Shown here: one piece after another, positions 10,159 through 58,997 of the stretch
How the letters are laid out: every line of letters begins with the position of its first letter
Numbering within the stretch: the first letter of the stretch is position 1
NCBI RefSeq assembly: GCF_002943525.1
Contig: NZ_CP025394.1
Location: 6,711,001 to 6,775,000, forward strand
Source of the DNA: Kitasatospora sp. MMS16-BH015
GTDB lineage: Bacteria; Actinomycetota; Actinomycetes; Streptomycetales; Streptomycetaceae
Reading direction: 5' to 3'
Length of the DNA: 64,000 nucleotides
Program-made: the position numbers and the translations under genes
Notes under the pieces: model-generated
The model's input: the letters and a program-made list of their open reading frames with translations, nothing else
Told to the model about the DNA's origin: nothing
Databases searched by the model: none

Positions 10159-16968
<6,810 letters not shown>

Positions 16969-17002
16969 CGACGACATCCGTTCACGTAGGAAGATGACAA
17001 GC

Positions 17003-17144: not shown

Positions 17145-17351
17145 TCAGGGGTGCTCCGGGCCGCCGCGCAGGGAGAGCGGCCGCATGTCCGTCCAGTGTT
17201 CGTCGACCCACCGCAGGCACTCCTCCTGGGAGCCGGACGGCCCCGCGTCCCGCCAGCCCTCCGGGGCGGCCCGATCGGCGAACCAGATCGAGTACTGCTC
17301 CTCGTGGTTGACGACGACTCGGTACCGGGTGCCGCTCTCGTCCTCAGTCAT
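17145..17351 (-). CDS. MbtH-family protein
   Basis: A 68-residue MbtH-like protein, the small partner that binds NRPS adenylation domains and helps their folding or activity. The family signature is clear: NHEEQYSIWF, PEGW, the CLRWVDEHW stretch and the terminal WTDMRP. The ATG overlaps the stop of the upstream flavin oxidoreductase gene by 8 nt, so translation is coupled. It is the last gene of the ACP-TE/flavoprotein/MbtH operon and is the only MbtH seen here, so it most likely serves the plus-strand NRPSs. Confidence 0.95.
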   Translation of the reverse strand: MTEDESGTRYRVVVNHEEQYSIWFADRAAPEGWRDAGPSGSQEECLRWVDEHWTDMRPLSLRGGPEHP

Positions 17352-44400: not shown

Positions 44401-47186
44401 GGGGTCTGGAGCTGGAGGACTTCGACGAGGGCGACCTCGACGCGCTCCTCGACCACGCCTTCCAGCGCTACTACGAGACCAGCGGGCTGTTCGGCACCCC
44501 CGAGGGCTGCGTGGCGATGGTGGACCGCCTGAGCGAGGTCGGTGTCGACGAGATCGCCTGCCTGGTGGACTTCGGCGTCCCCGCCGACGAGGTGCTCGCG
44601 GCGCTGCCCCAGCTGGCGGAGCTGCGCCGGCTGGCCGACTCGGCGCCCGACCGGGCGCCGCGGGACATCGCGGGGATGATCGAGCGGCACGGTGTCACCC
44701 ACCTGCAGTGCACCCCCTCGCTGGCCGCCGTGCTGATCGCCGACGAGCAGGTGCGGGCCGCACTGGGCTCCCTCGACCGGATGCTGGTCGGCGGTGAGGC
44801 CCTGACGCCCGCCCTGGCCGAGCAGTTGGCGCAGGCGGTCGGCGGGCGCCTGCTGAACGTCTACGGGCCGACCGAGGCGACGATCTGGTCCACCGCCCAT
44901 CCCGTGCACGAGGGCAGCCACTCGATCGGCCGTCCGCTCTCCAACACCAGGGCCTACGTCCTGGACGAGCGGGGGGCGCCGGTGCCGATCGGCGTGCCTG
45001 GCGAGCTCCACCTCGGCGGCACCGGTGTCGCGGCGGGCTACCTGCACCAGCCGGAGCTCACCGCGGAGCGCTTCCTCGCGGACCCCTTCGCCGCCGACCC
45101 GGCCGCCCGGATGTACCGCACCGGCGACCTGGTCCGCTACCGGTCGAACGGCGAGATCGAGTACCTCGGGCGCCGGGACGGGCAGGTGAAGATCCACGGC
45201 TTCCGGGTGGAGCCGGGGGAGATCGAGGCGGCGCTGGCCGCCGCACCGGGCGTCCGGCACGCGGCGGTGGTCGCGGCGGAGGACGGCCGGGGCGGACAAC
45301 GGCTCATCGGCTACCTGGTCCTCGCCGGGCCGCTGGACGAGGAGGAGCTCCGCCGGCACCTGGAGGCCCGCCTGCCGCGCCACCTGGTCCCCGCCCAGTT
45401 CGTCGCCCTGGCGGCGATGCCGCTGCTGCCGAGCGGCAAGACCGATCGGCGGGCCCTGCCGGAGCCGCCGCCACTCCGGCGGCGCACGCCGTCGGCCACG
45501 GCGCCCGCGACGGCGACCGAGCGGAGCCTGGCCGGGATCTGGCGCGACCTGCTGCGCTGCGGGGAGATCGGGGTCGAGGACAACTTCTTCGACCTCGGTG
45601 GCGACTCGATCGTCGCCATCCAGATGGTCTCGCGCGCCCGGCAGGCGGGCATCGTGCTGACCGCACGGGACCTGTTCCAGCACCAGACGCTGGGCGAACT
45701 CGCCGCCGTGGCCCGGCAGGACGGCCGGATCACGGCCGAACAGGGCGTGCTGGTGGGCGAATCCGGGCTCGCCCCGATCCAGCACTGGTTCTTCGAGCAG
45801 CGGCTGGCCGACCAGCACCACTACAACCAGGCCGTGCTGGCGGACGTCCTGGCCGGCCCACTCGACCTGGCGCTGCTGGCCCGCGCGCGGGACGCTGTCC
45901 TGCGCCACCACGACGCCCTGCGCAACACCTTCCACCCCGACCCGACCGGGTGGATCCAGCGGACCGGCGCGCCGGAGCCGGTCACGGAGCCGATCGAGCA
46001 CGTCGAGCTGGGCGCCCTGCCGCCGGCGGACTGGCCGGCCGAACTCGAAGCCGTCCAGAACCGCGCGCACCGCGCCCTGGACCTCGACCGCGGGCCGCTG
46101 CTGCGGATGGTCTCCGTCGGCTACGGCGGGCACCGGCCCGATCAGCTCTTCACCGTGATCCACCACACCGTGGTGGACGGCGTCTCCTGGCGGATCCTGC
46201 TGGAGGACCTGCAGCACGCCTACCGCCTGCTGCGGGACGGCCACCGGGTCGAGCTGCCCGCCAAGACCACCTCCTACCGGGAGTGGATCGCCAGGCTGGC
46301 GCAGGAGGCCGCCTCCGATCGGACGCTCGCCGAACTCGACTACTGGACAGAGCAGGTCGAGGGCCCGCACCCGGCCCACGCCCTGCCGCGCGACCGCGAC
46401 GGCGGCAACACCGAGGCCGCCGCGCGCACCACCACCGCGGAGTTCACCACGGAGGAGACCGAGGCACTCCTGCACGAGGTGCCCCGCGCCCACCACGCCG
46501 ACCTCCACGTCCTGCTGCTCTGCGCCCTGGCGGAGGCCTGTGCGCAGTGGACCGGTTCGAGTTCGCTGCTGCTGGACCTGGAGGGGCACGGGCGTGAGGA
46601 GCTCTTCGAGGACGTCGACCTCTCCCGCTCGGTGGGCTGGTTCACCGCCCTGTACCCGCTGCGCATCGACCTGCCGACCGACCCCGCGGAGCGGCCGGCC
46701 GCCGTCCGGGAGCAGGTGCGCCGCATCCCCCGCCGGGGGATCGGGCACGGTCTGCTGCGCCACCTGCACCCCGACGCCTCGGTCAGGTCCCGGCTCGCCG
46801 CCGGACACCGGCCCGAGATCGTCTTCAACTACCTGGGGCAGGCGGACGCCTCGCACCGCGACGGCGCCCTGCTCGCGTTGGCCACCGGCTCCGTGGGCGC
46901 GCCGCACGCGCCCGCCCAGACCCGGCGGCACCTGCTCAACGTCAACGGACTCGTCGCGGGCGGCCGCCTGCGGGTGGATTTCACCTTCAGCGAGGCCGTG
47001 CACGATCCGGCGACGATCCGCGACCTGGCCGACCGCTTCGGTGACCTGCTGCGCCGACGGGTGGCGGACTGCCGGGCGGGCCTGATCCGGCTCGCCCCGT
47101 CCGACTTCCCCGACGTGGAGCTGACCCAGGAGTCCCTGGACGACCTGCTCGGTGAGATCCGGGACCAGGAAGGAGAACCGGCGTGA
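38454..47186 (+). CDS. NRPS: degenerate C-A(Asp)-PCP-C-A(Gly, monooxygenase inserted)-PCP-E
   Basis: A 2,910-residue two-module NRPS. Residues about 10-430 resemble a condensation domain, but the HHxxxDG site reads TADGLFAD, so it is probably inactive. The C domain ending the previous protein may replace it. A1 about 440-955 has code DLTKVGHVGK, one residue from the aspartate code DLTKVGHIGK. PCP1 Ser near 984. Second C about 1030-1475 (HHIVSDGWS). A2 about 1490-2350 with a luciferase-like insertion at about 1719-2069 and code DILQLGVIWK, matching glycine. PCP2 Ser near 2383. E domain about 2420-2900 (HHTVVDGVSWR, FNYLGQ). I chose the ATG at 38454, which has GGAGAG about 9 nt upstream, over the ATG at 38427. 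The stop overlaps the next GTG (GTGA). Confidence 0.9.
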   Translation: MYDAELDTTAEAGFRLSPPQLLAWPHAAGRRVQARILVEGAVAPERLEQALRQVAERHESLRARLVEVPGLSVPLQSVAPAAALAWHREHLPVEAAAARAAVEAAAAADLAEPWPGAVRARLLLGADGSDGAVLLVTADGLFADRRSLLVVLAELAAILGGTGLPEEPLQYLDAAEWLGEQLATDEARARMDAWLARELAVAGGVEPASEPGPAGEPVLVSAEPEPALVAALDRTAAELGAGPAAVLLGAWQLLLGRLTGQEEVVTAVRADTRGLAELDEVVGLFETGVPVLGTLSGALPFASLVRDLDRALAAVPAAQFAFDGARAAEPLPFGFACTELPAGLPAGAGRLTVTDLCTGHGGSALHLGVARPAGGRLLLSLARDEQRVSHRHARVLADQYLSVLRAVVARPHARLGDLGLAQDPAVAGFPVLPAGALSPAAGPALAHLRFEQRAAERPEALAVVCGEQELTYREAEARANRLAAALRARGVGPDAPVALVLERSVDYVVGLLGVLKAGGAFVPLDPGLPAARARAVLDELRPAVLLTHRGLLDPEVAGAVPVLDLDTARLEDWPDTPVESAARPEHTAYVIFTSGSTGRPKGVAVPHRAVCAYLDGVLPVLDLPEDELLGTLATPAADLGHTAVFGALCTGRSLFLAVPEEVLDGAGLAARFRDRPLGLLKIVPSHLAALLDAPGAEALLPSRCLVLGGEPLPTALLERIRALRPGLRVVNHYGPTEAAVGALAHEVAGPERGPAPIGRPLAGYRAYLLDAGLRPVLRGAVGELYLAGPGLARGYQGRPGATAERFLPDPFAAEPGARMYRTGDLVRLRPDGAAVFLGRTDHQVKIRGHRVELGEIEAELRRDADVADAVVVAEADGARLTAFVVARRGRSVDTEELRQGLRLRLPEYLVPTAIAALPALPLSPNGKVDRRALPTVDQAASRTARYAAPTTETETLLAGLWAEVLGCERVGREDSFFQELGGNSLDATRVVARIRAATGVGLHVSALFEAPTVARLAALVDGSAVDTGAGAIVPVERTGPMPLSYAQRRLWVLSEVDGVRTAYHIPAAVRIRGELDVDLLVEALREVVHRHEALRTNVVLVDGTPRQVVREPGGFAVPVRETAEGEVPERARVFAARPFDLARDELFRAELLRVGPREHVLLLCLHHIVSDGWSTALLWREVVTRYGDRRAGRVPAPAPLPVQYADYAVWQNAWLDEGGTAPQLDYWTEQLRDLPAALELPTDRPRPKVQGYHGASVPIEIGAETLAGLRALSHERQASVFMVLLAAFNVLLARHSGQQDIAVGTPVANRTRAEVEHLIGCFFNTLVIRTDLSGDPEFTELLDRVRAAVLAGQAHQDLPFERLVEALNPPRDPGRSPLFQTLFVYQPAPDEGLTMDGLRLDSLPIGGEVAKYDLTLDLTEHAHGVSGRIEYRTDLFEAETVQRLGRQFLELLGSVLRTPRARTGELTLLPAAERDLLLHGWNSGYLDRPDAPWAADAFEERVRRHPEATALVHGERRLSYRELDRAANRLAHALRSAGVAGNGLVGLWLDRSVETVVAVLAVLKAGAAYLPLDPDAPTARNRELIADARLGFVITTGERSADLPSEVVAVDPVQETGEDSAPARRSDPEDLAYVIHTSGSTGRPKGVMIGQRNLAGFFAAMDEQLGGDRPGTWLAVTRYTFDISVLELLWTLTRGFEVVLADDELVLSEGRRGPRPRTPDFSLFYFASDAGDREADKYRLLLEGAKWADRQGFAAVWTPERHFGTFGGLYPNPVVTSAALATATSRIGLRTGSLVLPLHDPIRVAEDWAVVDNISGGRVGLSVASGWQPHDFALAPGKFADRKEVMFRDLEVVRRLWRGESVRTVSGTGEEIEVRTLPRPVQPELPVWVTAAGNPETFRRAGAVGANLLTHLLGQSVEDLAESVRVYRTARAEAGHPGPGHVTLMLHTFVSGDEEAVRRTVREPFKNYLRQSVDLVRPIARDRGLELEDFDEGDLDALLDHAFQRYYETSGLFGTPEGCVAMVDRLSEVGVDEIACLVDFGVPADEVLAALPQLAELRRLADSAPDRAPRDIAGMIERHGVTHLQCTPSLAAVLIADEQVRAALGSLDRMLVGGEALTPALAEQLAQAVGGRLLNVYGPTEATIWSTAHPVHEGSHSIGRPLSNTRAYVLDERGAPVPIGVPGELHLGGTGVAAGYLHQPELTAERFLADPFAADPAARMYRTGDLVRYRSNGEIEYLGRRDGQVKIHGFRVEPGEIEAALAAAPGVRHAAVVAAEDGRGGQRLIGYLVLAGPLDEEELRRHLEARLPRHLVPAQFVALAAMPLLPSGKTDRRALPEPPPLRRRTPSATAPATATERSLAGIWRDLLRCGEIGVEDNFFDLGGDSIVAIQMVSRARQAGIVLTARDLFQHQTLGELAAVARQDGRITAEQGVLVGESGLAPIQHWFFEQRLADQHHYNQAVLADVLAGPLDLALLARARDAVLRHHDALRNTFHPDPTGWIQRTGAPEPVTEPIEHVELGALPPADWPAELEAVQNRAHRALDLDRGPLLRMVSVGYGGHRPDQLFTVIHHTVVDGVSWRILLEDLQHAYRLLRDGHRVELPAKTTSYREWIARLAQEAASDRTLAELDYWTEQVEGPHPAHALPRDRDGGNTEAAARTTTAEFTTEETEALLHEVPRAHHADLHVLLLCALAEACAQWTGSSSLLLDLEGHGREELFEDVDLSRSVGWFTALYPLRIDLPTDPAERPAAVREQVRRIPRRGIGHGLLRHLHPDASVRSRLAAGHRPEIVFNYLGQADASHRDGALLALATGSVGAPHAPAQTRRHLLNVNGLVAGGRLRVDFTFSEAVHDPATIRDLADRFGDLLRRRVADCRAGLIRLAPSDFPDVELTQESLDDLLGEIRDQEGEPA

Positions 47187-50100
47187 GCCGACCTGACGAC
47201 ATCGAGGCGATCTACCCGCTCTCGCCGATGCAGCACGCCATGCTGCTCCGTTCGCAACTCGCCCCCGGCAGCGGGGTCTACCTGCTGCAGTTGTCCTTCG
47301 AGCTCGGTGGGGCCTTCGACGCGGACGCCTTCCGCCGGGCCTGGGAGCAGGTCACCGCGCGGCACGCCGCTCACCGGACCTGCTTCCTGCGGCTGGACCA
47401 GGAGCAGCCCTTGCAGGTGGTGCGCCGCACCGTGAGCCTGCCCTGGCGGGAGGAGGACTGGTCCGAGCTGCCCGCCGAGGAGCAGGAGGCCCGGTTCGCC
47501 GCCCTGCTGGAGCAGGACCGCGCCGAGGACTTCGTGCCCGCCCGGGCACCGCTGATGCGGTGCGTGCTGGTGCGCACCGCGCCGGACCGCCACCGCTTTC
47601 TGTGGACCCGGCACCACGCGATCTCCGACGGGTGGTCGATGCCGACCGTGCTGTCCGAGGTGGTGCGGTGCTACCGGGCGATCGGGGAGGGCCGCCCGCC
47701 GCAACTCGGCCCGGTGACCCAGTACCGCGACTACATCGCCTGGCTGCGGGCCCAGGACCAGGCCGGCACCGAGGAGTACTGGCGGCGCTCCCTCGCCGGG
47801 GTGGCCGGGCCGACCCTGCTGGGCGTCGGCCGGCCGCAGGCCGGCGGCACACCCGGCCGGGGCGCCGTCGGGAAGCGGCGGGTGCTGCTGAGCCGGGCGG
47901 ACACCGACGCCCTGCTGGCAGCCGTCCGCCGGGAGCGGATCACGCTGAGCACCTACGTGCAGGCGGCCTGGGCGCTGCTGCTGCACGCCTACAGCGGCGA
48001 GCGGGAGGTCATGCTCGGCATGGTCTCCTCCGGCCGCCCGCCGGCGTTGGCCGGGATGGAGTCGGCCGTCGGCTGCTTCCTGAACACCCTGCCGGTCCGG
48101 GTCCGGGTGGACGAGGGGGCGCCGGTCACCGACTGGCTGCGGGCCCTGCAGAGCGCGCAGGTGGCGCGCGAGGAGCACGGTCACGTCCCGCTCGCGCAGA
48201 TCCGCCGCTGGGCGGGGCTGCCGGGCGACCAGCCGCTGATGGAATCCCTGGTGGTCTTCGAGAACTTTCCGGGCGGCGAGGCCCTCGCCGCCCAGGGCGG
48301 GCCGCTCCGGGTGGAGAACGTCCGGATGGCGGAGCAGACCAGCTTCCCGCTCACGCTCACGGTCGCCCCCGGTGACCAGCTCTCGCTCCAACTCGGCTAC
48401 GACCAGGACCGGTTCGAGGATCACGTGGTCGAGCGGGTGCTCGGGCACTACGAGGCCCTGCTCCGCTCGCTGGCCGCCCCGCCGGCCCGGGTCGGCGACC
48501 TGAACGCGGTCGGCCCCGCCGAGCTGGCCGCCCTGCTGGCCGAGTCCACAGGCCCGCAGATCGAGCCGCCGAGCGCGGGAGCGGGCGGTGTGCACCGCCT
48601 GTTCGAGGCGCAGGCGGCGGCGACCCCGGGGGCGACGGCCCTGGTCGTGGACGAGGAGCGGCGTTCGTACGCCGAGCTCGACGCCCGGGCGAACCGGATC
48701 GCGGCGCGGCTGCACCGGGCCGGCGTGCTGCCCGGGGCCTTCGTCGGGGTCTGCCTGGAGCGTACGGCCGACCTGCCCGCCGCCCTGCTGGCGGTGTGGA
48801 AGGCCGGGGCCGCCTACCTGCCCCTGGATCCGACCTACCCCGCCGCCCGGATCCGGCACGTCCTCGAGGACGCGGCGCCGGCCGTGGTCCTGGCCCAGGA
48901 CTCGACCGGCGGGGTGCTGGCGGGCGCGGCTTGCCCCGTGCTGTCGCTCGACGCGCCCGAGGAGGAGCCCGCCGCGGACGGGTTCGCACCGGTGGACGCC
49001 GAGGCCGACGCGGTCGCCCTGACGATCTACACCTCGGGCTCGACCGGGACTCCCAAGGGCGTGCTGATCACCCACCGCAACGTCCGCGCCCTGCTGGCCT
49101 GGGCATCGGGCACCTACTCGGCCGAGGAGCTCTCGGGGACGCTGGCCTCGACCTCGGTCTGCTTCGACCTCTCCGTCTTCGAGCTCTTCCTGCCGCTCAC
49201 CACCGGCGCCACCGTGATCCTGGCCCGGAACGCGCTGCTCCTGCCCTCGCTGCCGGCCCGCGAGGAGGTGACGCTGATCAACACCGTGCCCTCGGCGCTG
49301 GACACGCTGCTGCGGCTCGGCGCCCTGCCACCGCGCGTCGCGGTGGTCAATCTCGCGGGTGAACCGCTGCCCGGGGAACTCGTGGACCGGGCCTACCGGC
49401 AGCCGGGGCTGCGCAAGGTGTACAACCTGTACGGACCCTCGGAGGACACCGTCTACTCCACCTTCGCGCTGGTCCCGGCGGGCGGCGGCAAGCCCCTGAT
49501 CGGCCGGCCGGTGGCCAATGCGCAGGCGTATGTCCTCGACCCTCGGCTGCGACCGGTGCCGACCGGTGTCGCAGGTGAGCTGTACCTCGGTGGTGACGGC
49601 GTCTCACGCGGCTACCACGACCGTCCGGCGCTCACCGCGAGCCGTTACCTGCCGGACCCGTTCGGCGGCCGCCCCGGCGCCCGGCTCTACCGCACGGGGG
49701 ACCTCGTCCGCCGGCTCGCCGACGGTCGGCTGGAGTACCTCGGTCGGACCGACCACCAGGTGAAGCTGCGAGGCTTCCGGATCGAGCTGGGCGAGATCGA
49801 GGCCACCCTGCGGGCCCTCGGGGAGGTGCGCGAGGCCGTGGCGGCGGTGCACACCGACCCGCACGGCGGCAAGCGCCTGGTGGCGTACGTGGTGGCCGAG
49901 CCCGGGCAGCCGCTCGATCAGCCCGGCCTGACGCGTGCGCTGCGGGCCGTGCTGCCCGAGCACATGGTGCCCTCGGCCTTCGTCGGCATCGACGCGATCC
50001 CGCTCACGCCGAACGGGAAGGTCGACCGGGGGGCGCTGCGGCCCCCCGAGACCCTGGGGGCCAGGCGTCCGTACCGGGAGCCCGCGAGCGAGACCGAGCG

Positions 50101-50401
50101 GGCCGTCGCCGCCGTCTGGACGGCTGTGCTCGGGGTGTCGAGGCCCGGGGCGGACGACGCCTTCTTCGACCTCGGCGGCGACTCCCTGCTGCTGGCCCGC
50201 GTGTTCGGCGAACTGAAGGCCCGCTTCCCCGACGGCCTCCTGATGACCGACCTGTTCCGTTTCCCGACCATCGCCGAGCTCGCCCGCCACCTCGACGGCG
50301 GCGGCCGGCCCGGCTTCACCGACGTGCAGAGCCGGCTGGAGCGCCGCAGGGCGGCCCGGCAGGCGGCGCCGCCGGCTCGGGGCGGTGGCAGCGGGCGCTG
50401 A
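47183..50401 (+). CDS. NRPS: C-A(Ala-like)-PCP, last module, no thioesterase
   Basis: A 1,072-residue single-module NRPS. C domain about 8-440 with YPLSPMQHAMLLRS and HHAISDGWS, of the kind that follows an E domain (DCL). A domain about 470-965 with TSGSTGTPKG and YGPSEDTVY. The code read by eye is DLFNNALVYK, close to the alanine code DLFNNALTYK. PCP about 970-1045 (LGGDSLLL, Ser near 998). The protein then ends in a basic tail with no TE, R or terminal C domain, so release must come from another protein. AGGAG lies about 9 nt before the GTG start, which overlaps the previous stop. Confidence 0.92.
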   Translation: MSRPDDIEAIYPLSPMQHAMLLRSQLAPGSGVYLLQLSFELGGAFDADAFRRAWEQVTARHAAHRTCFLRLDQEQPLQVVRRTVSLPWREEDWSELPAEEQEARFAALLEQDRAEDFVPARAPLMRCVLVRTAPDRHRFLWTRHHAISDGWSMPTVLSEVVRCYRAIGEGRPPQLGPVTQYRDYIAWLRAQDQAGTEEYWRRSLAGVAGPTLLGVGRPQAGGTPGRGAVGKRRVLLSRADTDALLAAVRRERITLSTYVQAAWALLLHAYSGEREVMLGMVSSGRPPALAGMESAVGCFLNTLPVRVRVDEGAPVTDWLRALQSAQVAREEHGHVPLAQIRRWAGLPGDQPLMESLVVFENFPGGEALAAQGGPLRVENVRMAEQTSFPLTLTVAPGDQLSLQLGYDQDRFEDHVVERVLGHYEALLRSLAAPPARVGDLNAVGPAELAALLAESTGPQIEPPSAGAGGVHRLFEAQAAATPGATALVVDEERRSYAELDARANRIAARLHRAGVLPGAFVGVCLERTADLPAALLAVWKAGAAYLPLDPTYPAARIRHVLEDAAPAVVLAQDSTGGVLAGAACPVLSLDAPEEEPAADGFAPVDAEADAVALTIYTSGSTGTPKGVLITHRNVRALLAWASGTYSAEELSGTLASTSVCFDLSVFELFLPLTTGATVILARNALLLPSLPAREEVTLINTVPSALDTLLRLGALPPRVAVVNLAGEPLPGELVDRAYRQPGLRKVYNLYGPSEDTVYSTFALVPAGGGKPLIGRPVANAQAYVLDPRLRPVPTGVAGELYLGGDGVSRGYHDRPALTASRYLPDPFGGRPGARLYRTGDLVRRLADGRLEYLGRTDHQVKLRGFRIELGEIEATLRALGEVREAVAAVHTDPHGGKRLVAYVVAEPGQPLDQPGLTRALRAVLPEHMVPSAFVGIDAIPLTPNGKVDRGALRPPETLGARRPYREPASETERAVAAVWTAVLGVSRPGADDAFFDLGGDSLLLARVFGELKARFPDGLLMTDLFRFPTIAELARHLDGGGRPGFTDVQSRLERRRAARQAAPPARGGGSGR

Positions 50402-51197
50402 ACCGTCCATTTCGGGGTGATATCGGAAGGCCGGTGGCGCCCGTTCGGTAAAGCCGGAGTAATCGGTGCCGAAAATCTCGGTCTCGTCCGTGGTGCAGAA
50501 TGGCACCGATTGCTCCGGCAGAATTGCCATATTCGATTGTATTTCGTCCGGCGCGGTCCGTGTGCTGAATTCGTGATGAATCGCAGCTGTGCGGGTGTGA
50601 AGTCAGGCTGCCGAGGAGTGAACCCGGGCGGAAGGCCGACTGGAGGACATGTCAAGACATGATGCCAAGCATGGCTGCGGTGGCCATCAGCCCAGGTGAA
50701 TGGCGATGCCTTCCCGGCCCAGCTCTTGACGAACGAGGTGGCCGGAGGGTGTGGCGCCGACCACGGGTGGCGCCGGTATGAGCAGACTGAATTGCACTTG
50801 ACATGGATGGATCGGCCGGGTTGGATCGAGTTGACGGCAGGCAGTTCGAGTCCTGTCGATCAGATCGCGGCGCTGGGGGGAAGTGCGATGGTGGCGACGA
50901 ACAATCACAGATTCTCGTGTTGCTTTCCGCTGCTGATCGATCTACGTTGTCCCTGGCGGATCTGACGCAGCTTCAAATGCTGTCCGCCATTGCTCCGGTG
51001 TATATCAGGCCCCCGGGAGCATCGCTTTTCTTTGACGTGCCGTAGGCATCATCCGGCGTGCCGTCCGCCGCCGAGAGTCGCCGACGAGTTCCCAGACTTC
51101 CACCACCGAGCCTTGGTGCCCGGCGCCCTCGAGGCGTCGCGCCGTGCCCTGTGGTGGGACATCCGGTCCCTGCGAGTCGCGGAGGGAGGTGTACAGC
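50402..51197. other. Long intergenic region between the last NRPS and the peptide-gene array
   Basis: About 800 bp with visibly lower GC than its surroundings between about 50400 and 51050. Short open frames occur on both strands but none has actinomycete third-position bias or a recognisable product. The only consensus-like promoter element is TTGACA (50798-50803) followed after 17 bp by TTGGAT (50821-50826). TTCATCA and TTCAGCA lie 11 bp apart on the minus strand (50580-50574 and 50569-50563) but have no -10. The region presumably holds the promoter of the peptide genes. No IS remnant was recognised. Confidence 0.5.
50798..50826 (+). promoter_or_regulatory. Candidate sigma-70-type promoter upstream of the peptide array
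   Basis: An exact TTGACA -35 at 50798-50803, a 17-bp spacer and a weak -10 TTGGAT at 50821-50826, pointing at the array. It would give a leader of about 365 nt to the first peptide, so it is only a candidate. Confidence 0.25.
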
Positions 51198-51308
51198 ATG
51201 GAGAAGATCGACTTCGAGAACGTCGAGATCGCCGGCCTCGAGGACGAGGCGCTCGCCGACGTCGTCGGCGGCCACGCGGTGGTCGTCCCGGCCAACCTCA
51301 GCGCCTGA
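51198..51308 (+). CDS. Double-glycine leader peptide 1 (precursor-like, 36 residues)
   Basis: The peptide starts MEKIDFENVEIAG, continues LEDEALADVVGG and ends in the core HAVVVPANLSA. The leader fits the C39-exporter consensus: Gly at -1 and -2, and hydrophobic Val, Leu and Leu at -4, -7 and -12. It is acidic as usual. Cleavage after Gly25 would release an 11-residue, mostly hydrophobic peptide with an N-terminal His. Only one Ser and no Thr or Cys are in the core, so lanthionine or thiazole chemistry is unlikely. GGAGGT stands 7 nt before the ATG. First of four sister genes upstream of a C39 peptidase-transporter, its probable processor. Function unknown: a signal peptide, a bacteriocin-like factor or a scaffold are possibilities. 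Confidence 0.85.
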   Translation: MEKIDFENVEIAGLEDEALADVVGGHAVVVPANLSA

Positions 51309-51363
51309 GTGGGCTGTTGAGGATAGACCGGGTCCCTGCGAGTCGCGGAGGGAGGTGTACAAC

Positions 51364-51468
51364 ATGATCGACTTCGAGAACATCGAGATCGCCGACCTCG
51401 AGGACGAGGCGCTCGCCGACGTCGTCGGCGGCCACGCGGTGGTCGTCCCGGCCAACCTCAGCGCCTGA
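51364..51468 (+). CDS. Double-glycine leader peptide 2 (precursor-like, 34 residues)
   Basis: It begins MIDFENIEIADL, lacking the EK of copies 1 and 3, has EALADVVGG before the cut site, and a core HAVVVPANLSA identical to peptide 1. The leader differs from copy 1 by Val-to-Ile and Gly-to-Asp as well as the shorter start, so the duplicate has drifted in the leader but not in the core. This suggests selection on the core or a very recent conversion. GGAGGT lies 7 nt before the ATG. Confidence 0.85.
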   Translation: MIDFENIEIADLEDEALADVVGGHAVVVPANLSA

Positions 51469-51523
51469 GTGGGCCGTTGAGGACGGGGCGTGTCCCTGCG
51501 AGTCGCGGAGGGAGGTGTACAGC

Positions 51524-51634
51524 ATGGAGAAGATCGACTTCGAGAACGTCGAGATCGCCGGCCTCGAGGACGAGGTGCTCGCCGACGTCGTCGGCGGCCA
51601 CGCGGTGGTCGTCCCGGCCTGTGTGAGCTGCTGA
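51524..51634 (+). CDS. Double-glycine leader peptide 3 with a two-cysteine core (36 residues)
   Basis: The leader is that of copy 1 with Ala18 changed to Val (EVLADVVGG). The core is HAVVVPACVSC. The first seven core residues match copies 1 and 2. The last four are replaced by CVSC, putting two cysteines three apart at the C-terminus, where a disulfide or thioether could form. All base changes between copies 1 and 3 in the core lie in the last four codons. Same ribosome site and spacing as the other units. Confidence 0.85.
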   Translation: MEKIDFENVEIAGLEDEVLADVVGGHAVVVPACVSC

Positions 51635-51697
51635 ACCCCTCAGTGGTGTTTCGAGGATGAGCTCCATCCCCACGAGTCGAGCAGGGAGGTGTACAAC

Positions 51698-51808
51698 ATG
51701 ACCGAGTTCGAGAACATCGAGATCGCCGGCCTCGAGGACGAGGCGCTCGCCGACGTCGTCGGCGGCCACGCCCTGGCGGTGCAGCCCGCCATGAGCGTGG
51801 CTCCGTAA
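51698..51808 (+). CDS. Double-glycine leader peptide 4 with divergent 13-residue core (36 residues)
   Basis: It begins MTEFENIEIAGL, keeps EALADVVGG and ends in the core HALAVQPAMSVAP. Compared with the others it keeps His-Ala at the start and a Pro-Ala pair, but is two residues longer and differs elsewhere. The spacer before it has also diverged. It is the last unit, ending 11 bp before a strong hairpin. As the most diverged copy it is likely the oldest duplicate. Confidence 0.85.
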   Translation: MTEFENIEIAGLEDEALADVVGGHALAVQPAMSVAP

Positions 51809-51819
51809 GGTGCGCTGAC

Positions 51820-51854
51820 GGGACTCCTGGCATGGATCAGATGCCAGGAGTCCC
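51820..51854 (+). terminator. Strong hairpin between the peptide array and the transporter
   Basis: A perfect 14-bp stem GGGACTCCTGGCAT / ATGCCAGGAGTCCC (51820-51833 and 51841-51854) with the 7-nt loop GGATCAG, 11 bp after the stop of peptide 4. No U-run follows. It may terminate or attenuate transcription so that peptides are made in excess over the transporter, or protect the 3' end of the peptide mRNA. An ATG in its loop side (51832) is in frame with the transporter but lacks a ribosome site. Confidence 0.7.
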
Positions 51855-51945
51855 CGTTCATGATAAGCCCGGGGGCGGGCTGGATCCGCTCGCCCCGCAC
51901 CCCGCTCCAGCCCCGAGCCCGATGGAAACATCCCAGGTGAGCACG

Positions 51946-54276
51946 ATGGACACGGTCGACGAAAGCAGTCACTCGAACCCCCGGCCGGGCACGGCGAGCA
52001 GGTTCCGGCAGCAGGCGCTCACGGCGCGCGGGGCGGTGCGCGAATACGGTCAGCAGGTGGCCGCCGGTCGCCTCGCCCGGCTCCCCTTCCGGCCGGCGGG
52101 GCACGGTGCGGAGGGCTCCCGCCGGGGCGGGCGGACTCCGTTGCGCCGCCCCCGGATCCCCGTCCGACTGCAGGCGCAGATCAGCGACTGCGGTGCCGCC
52201 TCGCTCTCCATGGTGCTGGCCCACCACGGTGTGGACGTCCCCGTGCAGGAGCTCCGGCAGGCGACCGACACCGGGCGGGACGGAGTGTCGGCGCGTCAGA
52301 TCCTGCAGACCGCCCGCGGATACGGCTTCAACGCGCGCGGAGTCCGGGTCGGGCTGGGCGCGCTCCGCGACCTGCCCGCCGCCACGATCCTCTTCTGGGA
52401 CTTCGCGCACTTCGTGGTGCTCGAAGGGGTGCGCGGCGACTTCGTCTACCTCGTGGATCCCGCGCTGGGGCGTCGCCGGCTGAGCCTGGAGGCGGCCGGG
52501 GAGTCGTTCACCGGGGTGGCCCTGCTGATCACGCCGGCCCTGGAGACGCGGCAGAACTGGAGCAGTCGGCGGGCCATGCGCCGGAGTGTCGGCTCCTGGC
52601 GCTACCTCTGGCACTTCTTCCCCGCCGGCTACCGCTGGCTCCCGTTCGTCCTCTGCTCCCTGCTGCTCATGCTCTTCAACCTGGGGATGCCGCTCGCCAC
52701 CCGCGAGGTGGTGGACCGGGCGGCCCCGGGGCACCAGGTCGGGGTCGGCGCCCTCTGGTTGGCGATTCCGGTGCTCGCCGCCGCCTACTTCGGGCTGCAG
52801 CTGCTGCGGTCGCTGTCCTTCCTCGCCGTCCAGGCGGCGGTGGACGAGAACATCACCCTGGGCATCCTCGACCGGCTGTTCGCGCTGCCCTACGACTTCT
52901 TCGCCACCCGCAGCCCCGGCGACCTGCTGCAGCGGGTGCGGATCAGCTCGGCGATCCGTCAGGTCTTCTCGGTCTCCGCCTTCGCCGCGGTCTTTGACGG
53001 CATCCTCATCCTGGTCTACATGACGCTGCTGGTCCTGGTGGACACCACCCTGGCCCTGGTGGTGGTCGCGGTCGCGCTGCTGCAGGTGTCGCTCCTGGTG
53101 GCCACCTGGCGCAAGCAGGAGTACGCGAGCTCCGACGCACTGGAGGCCCGCTCCCGGGCCGAGTCCGAGCTGGTCGAGCTGCTGGACGGCATGGCGACGA
53201 TCAAGTCGGCGGGGGTGGAGGGCGCCGTCGGCCACCGCTGGAGCCACTCCCTGGCCGAGGAGCTCAACGCCCGGCTCCGCAGCCGGCGCCTGCTCGCGCT
53301 GTCCTCGACGCTGAGCACGGCCCTGCAACTGGTGGCGCCACTGATCATCCTGGCGGTGGGGATGCAGCGGCTCTCCACGGGCGCGCTCACCCTGGGCGAG
53401 GTGCTGGGCTTCAGCGTGCTCGCCATGGGTCTGCTCGTCCCGCTGGCCAACTGCGTCCAGGTGGGCTTCCAAGTGGCCGGGATCGGAGCCGAGTTGAGCA
53501 AGCTGAGCGACATCATGGAGACGGCGCAGGAGAAGCGCGCCGGCGCCGTCGAGACGGGCACCGTGCACGGAGCCCTGGAGGTCCGGGACGTCTCCTTCGC
53601 CTACCAGGCGGGCCAGGGCGACGTGGTGAGCCGGGTCTCGTTCCGGGTGCCCGAAGGTAGTTTCACCACCATCCTCGGCGCGTCCGGATCCGGTAAGTCC
53701 TCCTGTGCACTCCTCCTCGCGGGGCTCCACCAGCCCACCGGCGGCGCCGTGCTGGTGGACGGCCGTGACCTCGCCGCCCTGGACACCCGCGACTTCCGGC
53801 AGTCCATCTCCTTCGTGAACCAGGACTCCCGACTCTTCTCCGGGGCGATCCGGGAGAACATCGGCTGGGGCGGCTCGGAGGTGACCGAGGCCGAGATCGT
53901 CGAAGCGGCGCGGCTGGCGGGGATCCACGAGGACATCGCCCGGATGCCGATGGGGTACGACACCCTGCTGGGCCCGGGCGGCGCCGGCGTGTCCGGCGGG
54001 CAGCGGCAACGGATCATCCTGGCCCGGGCATTGGTGCGCAAGCCGCGGATGCTGATCCTCGACGAGGCGACCAGCGCGCTCGACCCCGTCCTGGAAGCGC
54101 AGATCTTCGAGCGGCTCCGCACCTTGCCGATGACCCTCGTGGTGGTGGCCCACCGACTCACGGCCATCGAGTCGGCTGACCAGGTGGTCGTCCTGGAGGC
54201 AGGACGGCTCGTCCAGCTCGGGCCCCCGCGCGAACTCTCCGCCCAGGACGGCCCCTATCGGGCTCTGGCGAGCTGA
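51946..54276 (+). CDS. Peptidase-containing ABC transporter (C39 peptidase-TMD-ATPase)
   Basis: A 776-residue PCAT, the class that cuts double-glycine leaders and exports the core. After an unusual 70-residue polar N-terminal extension, the C39 domain (about 70-200) keeps the oxyanion Gln (76), Cys (82, in ISDCGAAS), His (155, in FAHFVVL) and Asp (171, in LVDPALG). The 6-residue Gln-Cys and 16-residue His-Asp spacings match characterised C39 domains. Six membrane helices follow (about 225-500), then the ATPase with Walker A GASGSGKSS, signature VSGGQRQR and Walker B MLILDEATSALD. The ATG at 51946 is preferred (AGGTGA 5 nt upstream). In-frame ATGs at 51832 and 51922 are possible. The four peptides just upstream are its evident substrates. 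The SARP gene follows 75 bp downstream. Confidence 0.9.
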   Translation: MDTVDESSHSNPRPGTASRFRQQALTARGAVREYGQQVAAGRLARLPFRPAGHGAEGSRRGGRTPLRRPRIPVRLQAQISDCGAASLSMVLAHHGVDVPVQELRQATDTGRDGVSARQILQTARGYGFNARGVRVGLGALRDLPAATILFWDFAHFVVLEGVRGDFVYLVDPALGRRRLSLEAAGESFTGVALLITPALETRQNWSSRRAMRRSVGSWRYLWHFFPAGYRWLPFVLCSLLLMLFNLGMPLATREVVDRAAPGHQVGVGALWLAIPVLAAAYFGLQLLRSLSFLAVQAAVDENITLGILDRLFALPYDFFATRSPGDLLQRVRISSAIRQVFSVSAFAAVFDGILILVYMTLLVLVDTTLALVVVAVALLQVSLLVATWRKQEYASSDALEARSRAESELVELLDGMATIKSAGVEGAVGHRWSHSLAEELNARLRSRRLLALSSTLSTALQLVAPLIILAVGMQRLSTGALTLGEVLGFSVLAMGLLVPLANCVQVGFQVAGIGAELSKLSDIMETAQEKRAGAVETGTVHGALEVRDVSFAYQAGQGDVVSRVSFRVPEGSFTTILGASGSGKSSCALLLAGLHQPTGGAVLVDGRDLAALDTRDFRQSISFVNQDSRLFSGAIRENIGWGGSEVTEAEIVEAARLAGIHEDIARMPMGYDTLLGPGGAGVSGGQRQRIILARALVRKPRMLILDEATSALDPVLEAQIFERLRTLPMTLVVVAHRLTAIESADQVVVLEAGRLVQLGPPRELSAQDGPYRALAS

Positions 54277-54350: not shown

Positions 54351-56336
54351 GTGAAAGTGAGCGCCGTGTTCCCCTCTCCGCATGCGACCGCCAAGTCGTT
54401 CCGCTTCGAGTTGCTCGGCCCGATCCGTGCGTGGAGCGGCGGCCGCGAGGTCGATCTCGGCTCGGCCAGGCAGCGGGCGGTCCTGGCCCGGCTGCTGCTG
54501 GCGACCGGTCAGCCACACGCGATCTCCGACATCATCGAGGCGGTCTGGGGCGAGGAGCTGCCCGGCAATCCGCGGAACCTCGTGCACAAGTACGTGGGGG
54601 GTCTGCGCCGTGCCCTGGACCCAGAGGTCGGCGACGCCAGGGCCAGCGAACTGCTGCCGCTGATCGACAACGGCTACTCCCTGCTCGTCGACCGCGACCA
54701 GGTCGACCTCAACGTCTTCACCCAGACCGTCGCCGAGGGCGTGGCCCTGGTGGACATCGACCTGCCCACGGCACGCGAGCGTCTGGACACGGCGCTCGGC
54801 CTCTGGGGCGGTGAGGCGTTCGCCCCGCTCTCCACCGAGTTCTTCGACACCCAGCGCAGCCGCCTGATGGAGCGTCGGCTGTCGGCGCTGGAGGACCGGA
54901 TCGGCATTGACATCGCACTCGGCCTGCACGCCCAGGCGACGGCGGAGCTGGTCAGCTTGCTGGTGGAGAACCCGCTGCGCGAGCACCTGGCGGCACTCCT
55001 GATGATCGCGTTCTACCGCTCCGGCCGTCAGGCCGACGCCCTCCGGGTGTTCCAGGACTGCCGCCGGAAGCTGAGCCACGAGCTTGCCATCGAGCCGGCC
55101 CAGGAGCTGCAGAGCATCCAGCTCCAGATCCTGGCGGGCGAGCCGATCCGGACGATCGCCCTGTCCTGCGGCCGCGCGGTGACCCCCGGCGTCCAGAACG
55201 GCCGGGGGCGCCGGCCCGCGAGCACGGACACCCCGAAGGGGACCACCCAGCCCGCGGTGACCGCACTGGAGCACTGTCACCTCAAGCCCGACCTGGGCGA
55301 CTTCACCGCTCGGGACCGCGAGCTCACGCAGATCTGCACGATCCTCGCCGAACCGGCGGACGTCCCGCCCATCGTGGTGATCACCGGGAGCGCCGGCGCG
55401 GGCAAGAGCGCCCTGGCGGTGCACGTGGCGAACCTCGTACGGAGCCGATTCCCCGACGGCCAGTTCCATATCGACCTCCGGGGCATGTCGGCCCGGCCCG
55501 TGACACCGAGCCAGGCCCAGCACCGACTCCTGCGGATGCTCGGCATGGAGGAGGTCGACGACCTCCTGAGCGGTGACGAACTGAGCGAGGTGTACCGGTC
55601 GGGGCTCGGCAGCCGGACGCTCACCATCTTCGACGACGTCGCCGACGAGCGCCAGGTCCGTCCGCTGCTCGGGGCGGGCGCCACCCTGATCACCAGCCGC
55701 CGACGGCTCACCGGCCTGGAGGGGGCCCGGATGGTGGAGTTGGACGCGATGGCCGAAGACGACGCGCTGCGCATGCTGGGCGGGATCATCGGCCCCGAAA
55801 GGCTGTCCACCGACCCCGCGCAGGCCGTCCGGATCGGACGGCTCACCGGTGCGTTGCCGCTCGCGCTGCGCATCGCGGGCGCGCGCCTGCTGGCCCGGCC
55901 GCACTGGTCGTTGGGGCAATTCGCGGACCGGTTGGCCGACGACGGCCGTCGGCTGCGGGAGCTCGCGCACAACGACCTCGACATCCGGGTGAGCCTCGCT
56001 GCGACCTTCCACCGGCTGAGCCCCGACAGCGTGCGGGCGTTCCTCTTGCTGGGCCTGCACGGCGAGCAGTGCTTCTCGATGCGGCAGGCGTCCGCCCTCC
56101 TCGGCATCTCGGAAATCGACGCCGCCGACCTGGTCGAGGAGCTCGTGGACCTCCGGCTGGTCGATGCCCGTCGCACCGAGGGCAGCGGCGAGATCCGCTA
56201 CCACCTGCCGGACCTCGTGCGTGACTTCGCCCGGGTCGAGGCGCAGGACCTCGACGCCGCGCCGTCCGGCAGCCCCCTCCAGCGGAGTTCCGTCGGGATC
56301 ATCGACCTGCACCGTCACAGTGGCGCCGCAGCCTAG
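54351..56336 (+). CDS. SARP-family activator with NB-ARC ATPase domain (AfsR-like, no TPR)
   Basis: A 661-residue regulator. N-terminal OmpR-like winged-helix DNA-binding domain (about 17-110, FELLGPIRAWSGGREVDLGSARQRAVLARLLL), bacterial transcriptional activation domain (about 115-260, with FYRSGRQADALRVFQDCRRKLSHELAIEP), a linker, then an NB-ARC-type P-loop ATPase (about 320-640, Walker A GSAGAGKSA, TIFDDV). The TPR region found in full-length AfsR is absent. SARPs bind direct heptad repeats 11 bp apart next to the -10. Three such boxes control this cluster, making this the prime candidate activator. The GTG at 54351 is the start used, although nearby GTGs at 54357 and 54366 cannot be excluded. 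It lies on the same strand as, and 75 bp after, the peptide transporter. Confidence 0.9.
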   Translation: MKVSAVFPSPHATAKSFRFELLGPIRAWSGGREVDLGSARQRAVLARLLLATGQPHAISDIIEAVWGEELPGNPRNLVHKYVGGLRRALDPEVGDARASELLPLIDNGYSLLVDRDQVDLNVFTQTVAEGVALVDIDLPTARERLDTALGLWGGEAFAPLSTEFFDTQRSRLMERRLSALEDRIGIDIALGLHAQATAELVSLLVENPLREHLAALLMIAFYRSGRQADALRVFQDCRRKLSHELAIEPAQELQSIQLQILAGEPIRTIALSCGRAVTPGVQNGRGRRPASTDTPKGTTQPAVTALEHCHLKPDLGDFTARDRELTQICTILAEPADVPPIVVITGSAGAGKSALAVHVANLVRSRFPDGQFHIDLRGMSARPVTPSQAQHRLLRMLGMEEVDDLLSGDELSEVYRSGLGSRTLTIFDDVADERQVRPLLGAGATLITSRRRLTGLEGARMVELDAMAEDDALRMLGGIIGPERLSTDPAQAVRIGRLTGALPLALRIAGARLLARPHWSLGQFADRLADDGRRLRELAHNDLDIRVSLAATFHRLSPDSVRAFLLLGLHGEQCFSMRQASALLGISEIDAADLVEELVDLRLVDARRTEGSGEIRYHLPDLVRDFARVEAQDLDAAPSGSPLQRSSVGIIDLHRHSGAAA

Positions 56337-56342
56337 ACGGCG

Positions 56343-57662
56343 TCACCAGGTGAGCCGCACGCCGCCCAGGTCGGCCGCGAAGGAGTCGAAGATGCGCCGT
56401 GCGGCCGGATCCGCCGCGAAGCGGGAGCCGAGCGCCAGCGTCACCCGGAGTGACTCGGTGCTGCCGAGGACCTTCAGCTCCGCTCCGCGCGAGCTGTACC
56501 GGGTGTCCGCCGGATAGCCGTTGGGGCGGGCGACGATGCCCCGGACGGATTTCTCGCCGGGATTCTGGTCGTTGTTGAAATAGCCCGTGGACAGCATCCA
56601 GCCACGAACCCCGTCCCGCTCCCTGAACGATTCGCTGACGGCCGAAGCCGTGGCATGGTCGACCTGGCGGTGCGCCGCGACTGACATCACCTCGTTGCGC
56701 ACCTGCCGGATCATTTCGGCGATCCCGTCGGTGCGGCGCAAGGAGACCGGAAGGGAGACCGTGAACATTCCCGAGGTGTCGGATTCGCCGAACGTCCTGG
56801 CATCGACGGGCAGCCAGACATGGAGGTGATCCTCCGCGGTCTCGGCGAAAACCGCGTTCGCGAGCGCCGCAATGGCCACCTGGACCTCGGTGGCCCGGAA
56901 AGACTTCGCGTACGCGCGCAATTCGGACCGCTCGGCCCCCGTCACGGTGGCATGCGCTGCGGTGTACGAGGGCTGGTCATCACCAGGGAGCTCGGCCGGC
57001 CGGGGTGCGAACTGCCGGGGTGCGAACTGCCGGGCTTCGGAGATGCGCTGGTCCCAGAAGGCCCCGGACGCCTCGTGTGGACCGGCCGTGCCCCGCTCCG
57101 CCGCCTCGACGAAGCTTGCGGCCGGCGCCATGGTTTCGGCGCCCGGGCCGGTCGGCCCGTACTCGAAGGCGTGCCAGAGATCGCGGAGCACCAGCGCCGT
57201 CCCCCTGCCGTCCAGGGCGACGTGCGAGAACGACGCGAGGAAGGCGTGCAGACCAGGGGAGTGGCGCAGCAGGCGAAACCTGAAGGGATATCCGGCGGAG
57301 AGATCCCAGGGCTCGGCCAGGTCGCTCCGGTGCACCAGCTTCGCGTACCGGGTGAACTGCTCCTCCGAGCTGCTGCGCACCTGCTGGCAGCGGATCAGTG
57401 CAGCCCTGCCGGGCGCGGGGCGGGCCCACTGGACGGGGGGTCGGCCGTCCTCCTCCGACAGGCCGATCCGGAGGCAGTCGTGCCGCGCGACCGTGCTGTC
57501 GAGCGCCTCGATGAAGCGCTCGACATCGAGCTCCCCGTCGATCCGATAGGTGACCGAGAGGGAGGTGGAAACCTCCGGCGCCGATCGCGACCGGGCGTGG
57601 TGCGAAGCCTGCCCTGGAGTCAGCGGATATCTCTTCGCAGAGCCACCGGAGGATGTTTGCAT
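56343..57662 (-). CDS. Stand-alone condensation-domain-like protein
   Basis: A 439-residue protein with the NRPS condensation/acyltransferase fold (PapA-, WS/DGAT-like). The active-site motif HHxxxDG reads SHVALDG near residues 147-153. The second His, the catalytic one, is kept and the first is Ser. The N-terminal YPLTPGQASHH resembles the C1 motif, and the length equals a lone C domain. No A or PCP domain is attached. Such proteins acylate an alcohol or amine, sometimes releasing a chain from a carrier protein, which would suit an assembly line without a working thioesterase. ATG at 57662 with GGAAGG 6 nt upstream. The longer frame to 57725 begins inside a TTGACA promoter-like element (57725-57720). 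Convergent with the SARP gene, 6 bp apart. Confidence 0.8.
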   Translation of the reverse strand: MQTSSGGSAKRYPLTPGQASHHARSRSAPEVSTSLSVTYRIDGELDVERFIEALDSTVARHDCLRIGLSEEDGRPPVQWARPAPGRAALIRCQQVRSSSEEQFTRYAKLVHRSDLAEPWDLSAGYPFRFRLLRHSPGLHAFLASFSHVALDGRGTALVLRDLWHAFEYGPTGPGAETMAPAASFVEAAERGTAGPHEASGAFWDQRISEARQFAPRQFAPRPAELPGDDQPSYTAAHATVTGAERSELRAYAKSFRATEVQVAIAALANAVFAETAEDHLHVWLPVDARTFGESDTSGMFTVSLPVSLRRTDGIAEMIRQVRNEVMSVAAHRQVDHATASAVSESFRERDGVRGWMLSTGYFNNDQNPGEKSVRGIVARPNGYPADTRYSSRGAELKVLGSTESLRVTLALGSRFAADPAARRIFDSFAADLGGVRLTW

Positions 57663-57782
57663 GCCCTGCCTTCCGAAATCGAATCCTGAGTCATGATGAA
57701 ACAGAATGCGCGCGACACGTGTCAAGGGATCACGACGGGCCGTTGGAAAAGGAACTCCGACTTCAGAATGGGGAGGTGTGAA

Positions 57783-57908: not shown

Positions 57909-58997
57909 GTGGACCAGACGATCACTGCCGCGCTGCGGCGCGGGGAAGAGCACCGGCGACGGTTCGAGGAGCGCTTCGCGGCGTACTTCGATGGGTTGAC
58001 GGCGGCCGGGGAGCCGGACGGGGTGGCGTACGGGCGGTTCCCCGGGCGGGCCGTCGAGTTGCTGCGGGACATGGCGCTGCGCGGCGGGAAGCGGCTGCGG
58101 GTGGCGGTGCTGTGGGAGGCGGCCGGGCTGGTGGCCGGGGCGGAGGTGGTGGGGCTGGACGAGGCCGCGATCAGCATCGAGCTGCTGCAGGTGCACGGGC
58201 TGGTCCATGACGATCTGATCGACGGGTCGGCCCTGCGGCGCGGCGCGCCCTCCGTGCCGCAGGCGTACCGGGAGGAGTGGCCCGGGCGGCCCGGGCTGGC
58301 GGCTGGACTGGCCGTGCTGGCCGGGGACTTGGCGGCCTTCCTCTCGGTGCGGGTGCTGGTCGACTCCGGTCTGCCGGCCGACCTGGCGATGGCGATGGCG
58401 GCCGAGCAGACCGGGGCCGGGAGCGCGGGGGTGGTCGGGCAGTTCCTCGATCTGGAGCGGGATCTCGGGCCACTGCCCTCGGTCGAATTCCTTGATGCTG
58501 TCACCGAGTTCAAGTCCACTCGGTACTCGATCCTGGCTCCGCTGCGGCTCGGCCTGCTCGCCGCCGGGGTGGACCCGGCGGCGTACGGGGACGAACTGGG
58601 CAGCTATGCAAGCGCGTTGGGCATCGCCAACATGCTCCGGGACGACTGGCTCGACCTGTTCGGCGACCAGGCGGTGGCCGGCAAGTCGCTGGGCTCGGAT
58701 CTGCGGGCCGGGCGCCGCAGCTACGTCCTCCGGGCCCTGCTGACGGCCGAGTTGGACGAGGACGAGCGGCGGGTGGTGACGGCCGCGCTGGGGGATCCCG
58801 AGGCCGGGGAGGAGGCGCTGGAGCGGGTGCGGGGCATCGCGCGGCGGCACGGGGTGGACCGCGCGGTGCAGGGGGAGGCCGAGCGGTACGCGGCCCGGGC
58901 GGCCGAGGTGGCCGCCGGCTGGGGGACGCGCTGGCGGGCCGAGGCCGTGGCCTTCTTCGCGTACCTGCCGGTCTGGACGGTGGCCCGCGACCACTGA
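57909..58997 (+). CDS. Polyprenyl (isoprenyl) diphosphate synthase
   Basis: A 362-residue all-alpha prenyltransferase that elongates allylic diphosphates with IPP. Both aspartate-rich motifs are intact: HDDLIDGSALRRG (first, DDxxD) and MLRDDWLDLFGD (second). GGKRLR near residue 70 is the conserved IPP-binding stretch. Length is usual for farnesyl/geranylgeranyl-type enzymes. Product length is not clear. The GTG at 57909 is preferred over 57852 because GGAAGG lies 9 nt upstream and homology begins here. No prenyltransferase or terpene cyclase is adjacent, so a link to the NRPS product is uncertain. Confidence 0.88.
   Translation: MDQTITAALRRGEEHRRRFEERFAAYFDGLTAAGEPDGVAYGRFPGRAVELLRDMALRGGKRLRVAVLWEAAGLVAGAEVVGLDEAAISIELLQVHGLVHDDLIDGSALRRGAPSVPQAYREEWPGRPGLAAGLAVLAGDLAAFLSVRVLVDSGLPADLAMAMAAEQTGAGSAGVVGQFLDLERDLGPLPSVEFLDAVTEFKSTRYSILAPLRLGLLAAGVDPAAYGDELGSYASALGIANMLRDDWLDLFGDQAVAGKSLGSDLRAGRRSYVLRALLTAELDEDERRVVTAALGDPEAGEEALERVRGIARRHGVDRAVQGEAERYAARAAEVAAGWGTRWRAEAVAFFAYLPVWTVARDH

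Follow-up and report, generated by a model that had tools for sequence, protein, structure and literature searches.

What does a run of small double-glycine (GG) peptides with a peptidase-containing ABC transporter (PCAT) do at the end of a nonribosomal peptide synthetase-polyketide synthase (NRPS-PKS) assembly line? The locus that raises this question lies in Kitasatospora sp. MMS16-BH015, and we analyzed it within a stretch of 64,000 nucleotides (contig NZ_CP025394.1, positions 6,711,001 to 6,775,000 of the forward strand), here called the window, whose own coordinates are used throughout. An initial annotation had proposed that the peptides are an autoinducer that times the cluster. We find instead that the GG peptide, a subfamily of C39 transporters, and a subfamily of freestanding condensation-domain proteins (C-like) are a co-inherited, sharply bounded trio, which hints at an unrecognized route joining ribosomal peptides to assembly-line chemistry. 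The elements concerned are the following.

51198-51308, plus strand: GG precursor 1, 36 aa; leader MEKIDFENVEIAGLEDEALADVVGG, core HAVVVPANLSA; profile match
51364-51468, plus strand: GG precursor 2, 34 aa; core HAVVVPANLSA, the same as in copy 1
51524-51634, plus strand: GG precursor 3, 36 aa; core HAVVVPACVSC
51698-51808, plus strand: GG precursor 4, 36 aa; core HALAVQPAMSVAP
51820-51854, plus strand: hairpin with a 14 bp perfect stem and a 7 nt loop, between precursor 4 and the transporter gene
51937-54276, plus strand: PCAT with C39, ABC membrane, and ABC ATPase domains
56343-57725, minus strand: C-like, a freestanding NRPS condensation-domain protein (PF00668, 93 bits)

The hairpin and the C-like gene had both gone unmentioned in the initial annotation. 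Its description of the array itself, four adjacent genes with GG leaders and hydrophobic residues at -4, -7, and -12, is borne out by the open reading frames (ORFs) and by the consensus. The four ORFs form a tandem array with a start-to-start spacing of 160-174 bp, each with GGAGG 8 nt ahead of its ATG. The leaders end in ALADVVGG in three copies and in VLADVVGG in one, and positions -4, -7, -12, and -15 are V, L, L, and I in all four, which makes -15 hydrophobic too. The predicted core DNA of copies 1 and 2 is identical. The 8.96 Mb genome contains four instances of back-translated LADVVGGHA, all within the array, and none of its reversed control. The adjacent transporter, which alone in the genome matches C39 at E <= 0.001, joins a C39 peptidase to an ABC exporter, and its catalytic residues are intact, as had been claimed, with C85, H158, and D174 present along with the oxyanion Gln (Q79). 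Its ORF is open from an ATG at 51832; because that codon sits in the hairpin loop, translation more likely begins at the GTG at 51937. Among the plasmid matches listed for the transporter, none reaches 60% identity, and the best is at 36.9%. As far as sequence goes, the trio behaves like a PCAT/GG export pair of the ComA/LctT/LanT type, sharing the GG leader, the hydrophobic -4/-7/-12/-15 positions, the C39 residues, and a small precursor next to the transporter. Unlike those systems, it is found in actinomycetes and is linked to carrier and ligase genes and a freestanding condensation-domain protein; the window genes scanned with Pfam include neither a LanM-type enzyme nor a receptor beside the array.

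The hairpin has a folding z of -4.5 in the window. The orthologues in ST-888 (genome G034) and in genome G1145 keep this hairpin, with a paired substitution of C-G for A-T; in G1145, as in the window, it stands 3' of the final copy only. Of 24 loci, 19 have a perfect stem of at least 11 bp within 160 nt past the GG gene, compared with 18 of 313 other gene ends from the same loci. A scan for canonical terminators and promoters found none, and the window hairpin has no T-run; termination, processing, or stabilization are possible roles. Because this hairpin separates the transporter gene from the last precursor, the precursors would be made in excess over the exporter.

How widely is this arrangement shared? 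A profile of the four window peptides gave matches, all weak, in 10 of 70 same-genus genomes at E <= 0.01, the source genome included. The nine others show the same architecture, with a GG peptide and, in eight of them, a C39 transporter 44-80% identical to that of the window. A freestanding condensation-domain protein is likewise present in eight of the nine, the ninth being a 5 kb contig. From the transporter side, genome contigs were scanned and the best 80 loci kept, a set smaller than the transporter family itself, of which 17 are family loci (L029-L045, 38-80% identical to the window transporter) and 63 are other C39 loci. A hidden Markov model (HMM) of C-like matched in 15 of the 17 and found no freestanding protein in the 63, where one NRPS protein, in control locus L099, scored 58 bits. 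The exceptions were L030 and L029, a 5 kb contig of ST-888. Sixteen of the 17 loci have a complete GG peptide; in L029, whose contig begins within the array, it is partial. In ST-888 (L029/L022) the second precursor lacks a normal start and leader, so that either the copy is broken or the assembly has collapsed here.

Searching 150 genomes at the family level with C-like returned seven matches of 339-642 bits, with all others at 153 bits or below. Three of the seven were already in the profile and four were new. Wherever a new locus had both flanks (two loci in G119, one in G124), GG and C39 genes lay next to C-like (3/3); the fourth, in ST-888, is at a contig end with its other half on a separate contig. 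At E <= 1e-60, C-like was found in 2 of 296 genomes at the class level and 2 of 396 at the phylum level, the same two genomes in both scans, which scored few candidates per genome and may miss rarer members. A peptide search at E <= 1e-6 matched 6 of 391 genomes at the order level; the four genomes new from it (one being L039) all carry C-like and C39, the latter as a 125-residue fragment in G1110. Window-type leaders occur at 27 further loci in the collected set, a recurrence beyond what chance would give. The initial annotation had named a lack of conservation in relatives as a reason to abandon its proposal, and the pair of leader and transporter is conserved.

Distance matrices of the transporter and C-like correlate strongly (r 0.95, n = 22; maximum of 2000 permutations, 0.44), which reflects joint inheritance and is by itself no proof of interaction. 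Across the trio loci, leaders are conserved, with L, D, G, and G invariant in 22 of them, and cores are variable (for example, QFAIAAHCVI, AFSVDPACVI, SDVVVPYDKT, SGGFVTPLGKP, and HALVANPARCTA). The second of these is the core of three identical tandem precursors in L045 (Kutzneria sp. CA-103260), at 9251, 9446, and 9641, 195 bp apart. Locus L143, in genome G039 and already part of the profile, has a GG peptide, C-like, and a JmjC gene, with no transporter found and transposase-like genes nearby by sight; it is a decaying copy of the cassette. In the open-licence literature searched, from which subscription journals are mostly absent, no description of a GG peptide with a C39 transporter and a freestanding condensation domain was found, and the earlier remark that the array was of no recognized kind seems fair.

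The conserved partner of the transporter, C-like, exceeds the PF00668 cut-off of 30.6 bits and has both the superfamily match and the fold of a condensation domain. An AlphaFold2 model built from 15 sequences (pLDDT 82.4, pTM 0.81) has condensation domains as its best PDB matches in Foldseek, with the surfactin C domain at E 7.8e-25 and VIA Z 27-32 among the matches listed. Structural matches include the freestanding SgcC5, the enacyloxin chain-release domain, and the X-domain 4tx2. The homologues are nearer to each other than to NRPS C domains of the same set, and NCBIfam gives only low partial NRPS matches. Residue H139 was considered as specific to the family and dropped, being judged common to C domains. 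A predicted condensation-domain fold is not sufficient to give function, and the HHxxxDG motif deserves attention here. It reads SHVALDG in the window protein (residues 146-152, numbered from a start at 57662), with the second His, D, and G present and the first His absent. Across the family, the second, catalytic His is present in nine loci, the window included, and lost in 17.

The genes around the relatives offer a clue to what C-like might do. Within neighborhoods of about 20 kb per locus, 18 of 23 family loci have an AMP-ligase or carrier protein near the trio, whereas 1 of the 63 other C39 loci does; the HMMs used for this count were derived from family members, and several control contigs are short. 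One branch has a compact set in the order GG-C39-C-PCP-ligase-ligase (PCP, peptidyl carrier protein), often with a JmjC_2 protein, and its second ligase has fatty acyl-AMP ligases (FAAL) as nearest relatives, below curated cut-offs. PKS genes occur near the trio in L032/L034 and L140; the L034 locus also has a GNAT-domain protein, only as a neighbor. A fused glycyl-tRNA synthetase alpha-beta gene adjoins the cassette in L039 (5902-8937), with homologues in L037 and L041, and a gene resembling class II tRNA synthetases lies at 8176-9183 in L042; these are possibly self-resistance targets.

We favor a reading, to which we give an even chance, in which the trio is a module for a ribosomally synthesized and post-translationally modified peptide (RiPP), lying within or next to biosynthetic clusters that work with carrier proteins: C-like would transfer a carrier-bound acyl group to the precursor, and the PCAT would then cut and export it. 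This acyl-transfer chemistry is one that we infer from sequence and gene context. The acidic leader end DEALADVVGG would be read by the C39 domain and perhaps also by C-like. The donor of the acyl or aminoacyl group would be a carrier protein, namely a PCP with a FAAL-type ligase in many relatives and the NRPS/PKS or a FAAL-acyl carrier protein (FAAL-ACP) in the window. C-like would move the group to a side-chain nucleophile near the core C-terminus, namely Cys where C-like has lost the motif His and Lys or Ser where the His is kept (Ser10 in the window), after which the transporter would cut behind GG and export the conjugate.

The variation of the cores bears on the supposed acceptor. Cys or Lys is found near the core C-terminus in most relatives, and one of Cys, Lys, or Ser is usually kept. 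Core position 10 is Ser in all four window copies and Cys in both G1145 copies and one ST-888 copy. Every locus without the motif His has Cys cores (16/16, or 17/17 including L154), whereas loci with the His have Cys in every copy in only three of nine; in the window, one copy of four has it. The pattern would fit the idea that a thiol acceptor needs no general base, whereas an amine or hydroxyl would. The same pattern can be read differently, however, with C-like as a non-catalytic docking or recruitment domain that would keep the precursor or carrier in place for other enzymes (JmjC, P450, radical SAM) to modify the peptide. The X-domain of glycopeptide systems is a docking or recruitment domain of this sort, and 4tx2 is among the Foldseek matches; the 17 loci that lost the His have kept D and usually G; and the JmjC_2 family occurs in 10 of 23 locus entries, two of them being one locus. 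Yet the His is there in nine loci, the window's own gene among them, no JmjC homologue was recognized in the window, and FAAL and PCP genes suggest acyl transfer. We consider docking unlikely.

If an acyl or assembly-line product is to be joined to the peptide, the host cluster in the window should be considered as well. Its genes are listed below (TE, thioesterase; SARP, Streptomyces antibiotic regulatory protein).

10159-16977, minus strand: PKS
17145-17351, minus strand: MbtH
17344-18990, minus strand: FAD enzyme
18980-20023, minus strand: ACP-TE
20150-21970 and 21967-23700, minus strand: two ABC exporter halves
23976-50401, plus strand: assembly line, consisting of FAAL-ACP (23976-26003) and NRPS/PKS genes (26033-30469, 30466-38400, 38454-47186, and 47183-50401)
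47183-50401, plus strand: the last NRPS gene of that assembly line, ahead of the array
54357-56336, plus strand: SARP-type regulator (BTAD, NB-ARC), following the transporter

The array thus stands between the last NRPS gene and the SARP gene, as the initial annotation had placed it. The host assembly line (FAAL-ACP, NRPS/PKS, PKS, FAD enzyme, ACP-TE, and MbtH) has orthologues in ST-888, G1145, and G091, and the cassette is present in three of these four clusters. Between G1145 and the window, identity is 82% for C39, 75% for the SARP, and 56% for C-like; ACP-TE is fused to the PKS in G1145, and in both ST-888 and G1145 the arrangement of the cassette differs from that in the window. The cluster in G091 has NRPS orthologues (62-65%), two ABC exporter genes (74-78%), and a SARP orthologue (58%). 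Its genome contains no C39-type relative, the best transporter match being 31% identical and without a peptidase part. Since G091 has the orthologous assembly line and lacks the cassette, the cassette is an optional module of the host cluster that the assembly line does not require.

It may also be exchangeable with an exporter. No ABC exporter pair of the host type was found in the 100 kb read from G1145 (best 36%) or seen in 60 kb of one ST-888 contig. The orthologues would fit a swap of exporters, G091 having the ABC pair alone, G1145 the cassette alone, and the window both, and this raises a second reading in which the GG peptide serves for export as a tag that can be cleaved: the freestanding condensation domain would off-load an assembly-line product onto the C-terminal nucleophile of the precursor, or derivatize it, and the PCAT would recognize and cut the leader and secrete the small molecule as a peptide conjugate. 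We regard this as rather unlikely. That the last NRPS gene has no TE was dropped as an argument for off-loading onto the peptide, there being an ACP-TE gene in the cluster.

Some further features of the window were noted. Bac_luciferase domains lie inside adenylation domains of 26033-30469 and 38454-47186, with AMP-binding matches flanking both, and the PKS-NRPS 30466-38400 carries at its C-terminal end a TauD-type dioxygenase domain, fused behind the C domain. An 823 aa protein with ATP-grasp/L-amino-acid-ligase domains (2517-4988), encoded next to an oxidoreductase and an MFS gene, may belong to another pathway. The one HATPase-bearing gene of the SpoIIE type (6356-9013) is about 42 kb from the array, and a polyprenyl synthetase gene (57909-58997) lies divergent beside the C-like gene.

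Returning to the acyl-transfer reading, a number of observations weigh against it. In the host, release is already provided for by the cluster's own ACP-TE, and the contig parts read from G091 contain neither a GG array nor a C-like gene. Both Cys and Lys are missing from the cores of window copies 1, 2, and 4. Among the relatives, L030 has a GG peptide and transporter without C-like, and no ligase or carrier was seen in the roughly 20 kb viewed at L021, L025, and L143; the models behind the ligase and carrier count come from the family itself. In the PCP branch, the catalytic His of C-like is mostly replaced by N, Q, or S, and these proteins may for that reason not be acyltransferases. The association of Cys cores with loss of the His (16/16 versus 3/9, Fisher p 0.0005) is drawn from loci that are not phylogenetically independent. 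Finally, leader differences among the window copies are few and all non-synonymous (0 synonymous, 1-3 non-synonymous). The close pair L038/L143 has 3 synonymous and 0 non-synonymous changes in the leader and 1 and 7 in the core, but other pairs are mixed, L035/L037 for example with 5 and 5 in the leader; given these mixed pairs and the window copies, dating by synonymous changes is weak.

Could the peptides be unmodified secreted signals after all, which act through the SARP, or through a receptor that is not linked, to switch the cluster on? The SARP gene is directly downstream of the array in the window, ST-888, and G1145, and BTAD-family neighbors (blast family FAM5, SARP) occur in 7 of 23 locus entries. 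Close to the trio in L045 is an HTH+TPR regulator (15162-16526), of a type able to sense peptides, with a homologue in L042. However, the window genes scanned with Pfam include no linked peptide receptor beside the array (unlinked receptors were not searched), the SARP orthologue in G091 goes without the cassette, and four copies with three different cores would be odd for one receptor. The conserved condensation-domain protein and the carrier and ligase genes would also be left unexplained. Because the conserved partner is a condensation domain rather than a receptor, the autoinducer proposed by the initial annotation, for which we see no specific support, now appears improbable.

A bacteriocin-like toxin with its exporter, serving as an accessory weapon without any NRPS/PKS chemistry on the peptide, would share with our locus the GG leader and PCAT, which are the classical bacteriocin arrangement, and the L038 peptide weakly matches bacteriocin models below their cut-offs. 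The cores, however, are short at 7-15 residues, no immunity gene was recognized beside the array, the window peptide has no NCBIfam match at E <= 0.01, and the C-like, carrier, and ligase genes again find no explanation. We think this very unlikely. Two other candidates were set aside: a lanthipeptide, as the window genes scanned include no lanthionine synthetase and most cores do not have the Ser/Thr and Cys make-up, and a defense system, for which PADLOC gave only ATPase-level matches.

The acyl-transfer reading has its closest parallels in two groups of known systems. SgcC5 and the enacyloxin chain-release domain share with C-like the condensation fold and the freestanding C domain, and in these cases the acceptor need not be a carrier protein. 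Here, in contrast, we propose a ribosomal peptide as acceptor, the motif His has been lost from many homologues, and C-like is set apart as a separate subfamily by the score gap described above. The other group is that of the acylated RiPPs (lipolanthines/goadvionins, lipoavitides, selidamides, and nostolysamides), for which published accounts describe GNAT-type acyltransferases and lanthionine synthetases (PMC13060382, PMC10435860). The proposed outcome is similar, in that a fatty-acyl or polyketide group from a neighboring pathway would end up on a ribosomal peptide, whereas the candidate transferase here is a condensation-domain protein rather than a GNAT. As neither a lanthionine synthetase nor a GNAT acyltransferase acting on the peptide was found among the window genes scanned with Pfam, the cassette is not filed with the lipolanthine/goadvionin or selidamide type.

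Even without the chemistry, what remains is a sharply bounded, mobile gene trio in unlike biosynthetic clusters. If the acyl-transfer reading is true, it would provide a condensation-domain route to hybrid ribosomal/nonribosomal peptides, as opposed to the GNATs of the acylated RiPPs in the accounts cited above. The combination of a GG leader, a C39 transporter, and a freestanding condensation domain would then be a handle for genome mining, and PCAT export of small molecules tethered to a ribosomal tag would become testable.

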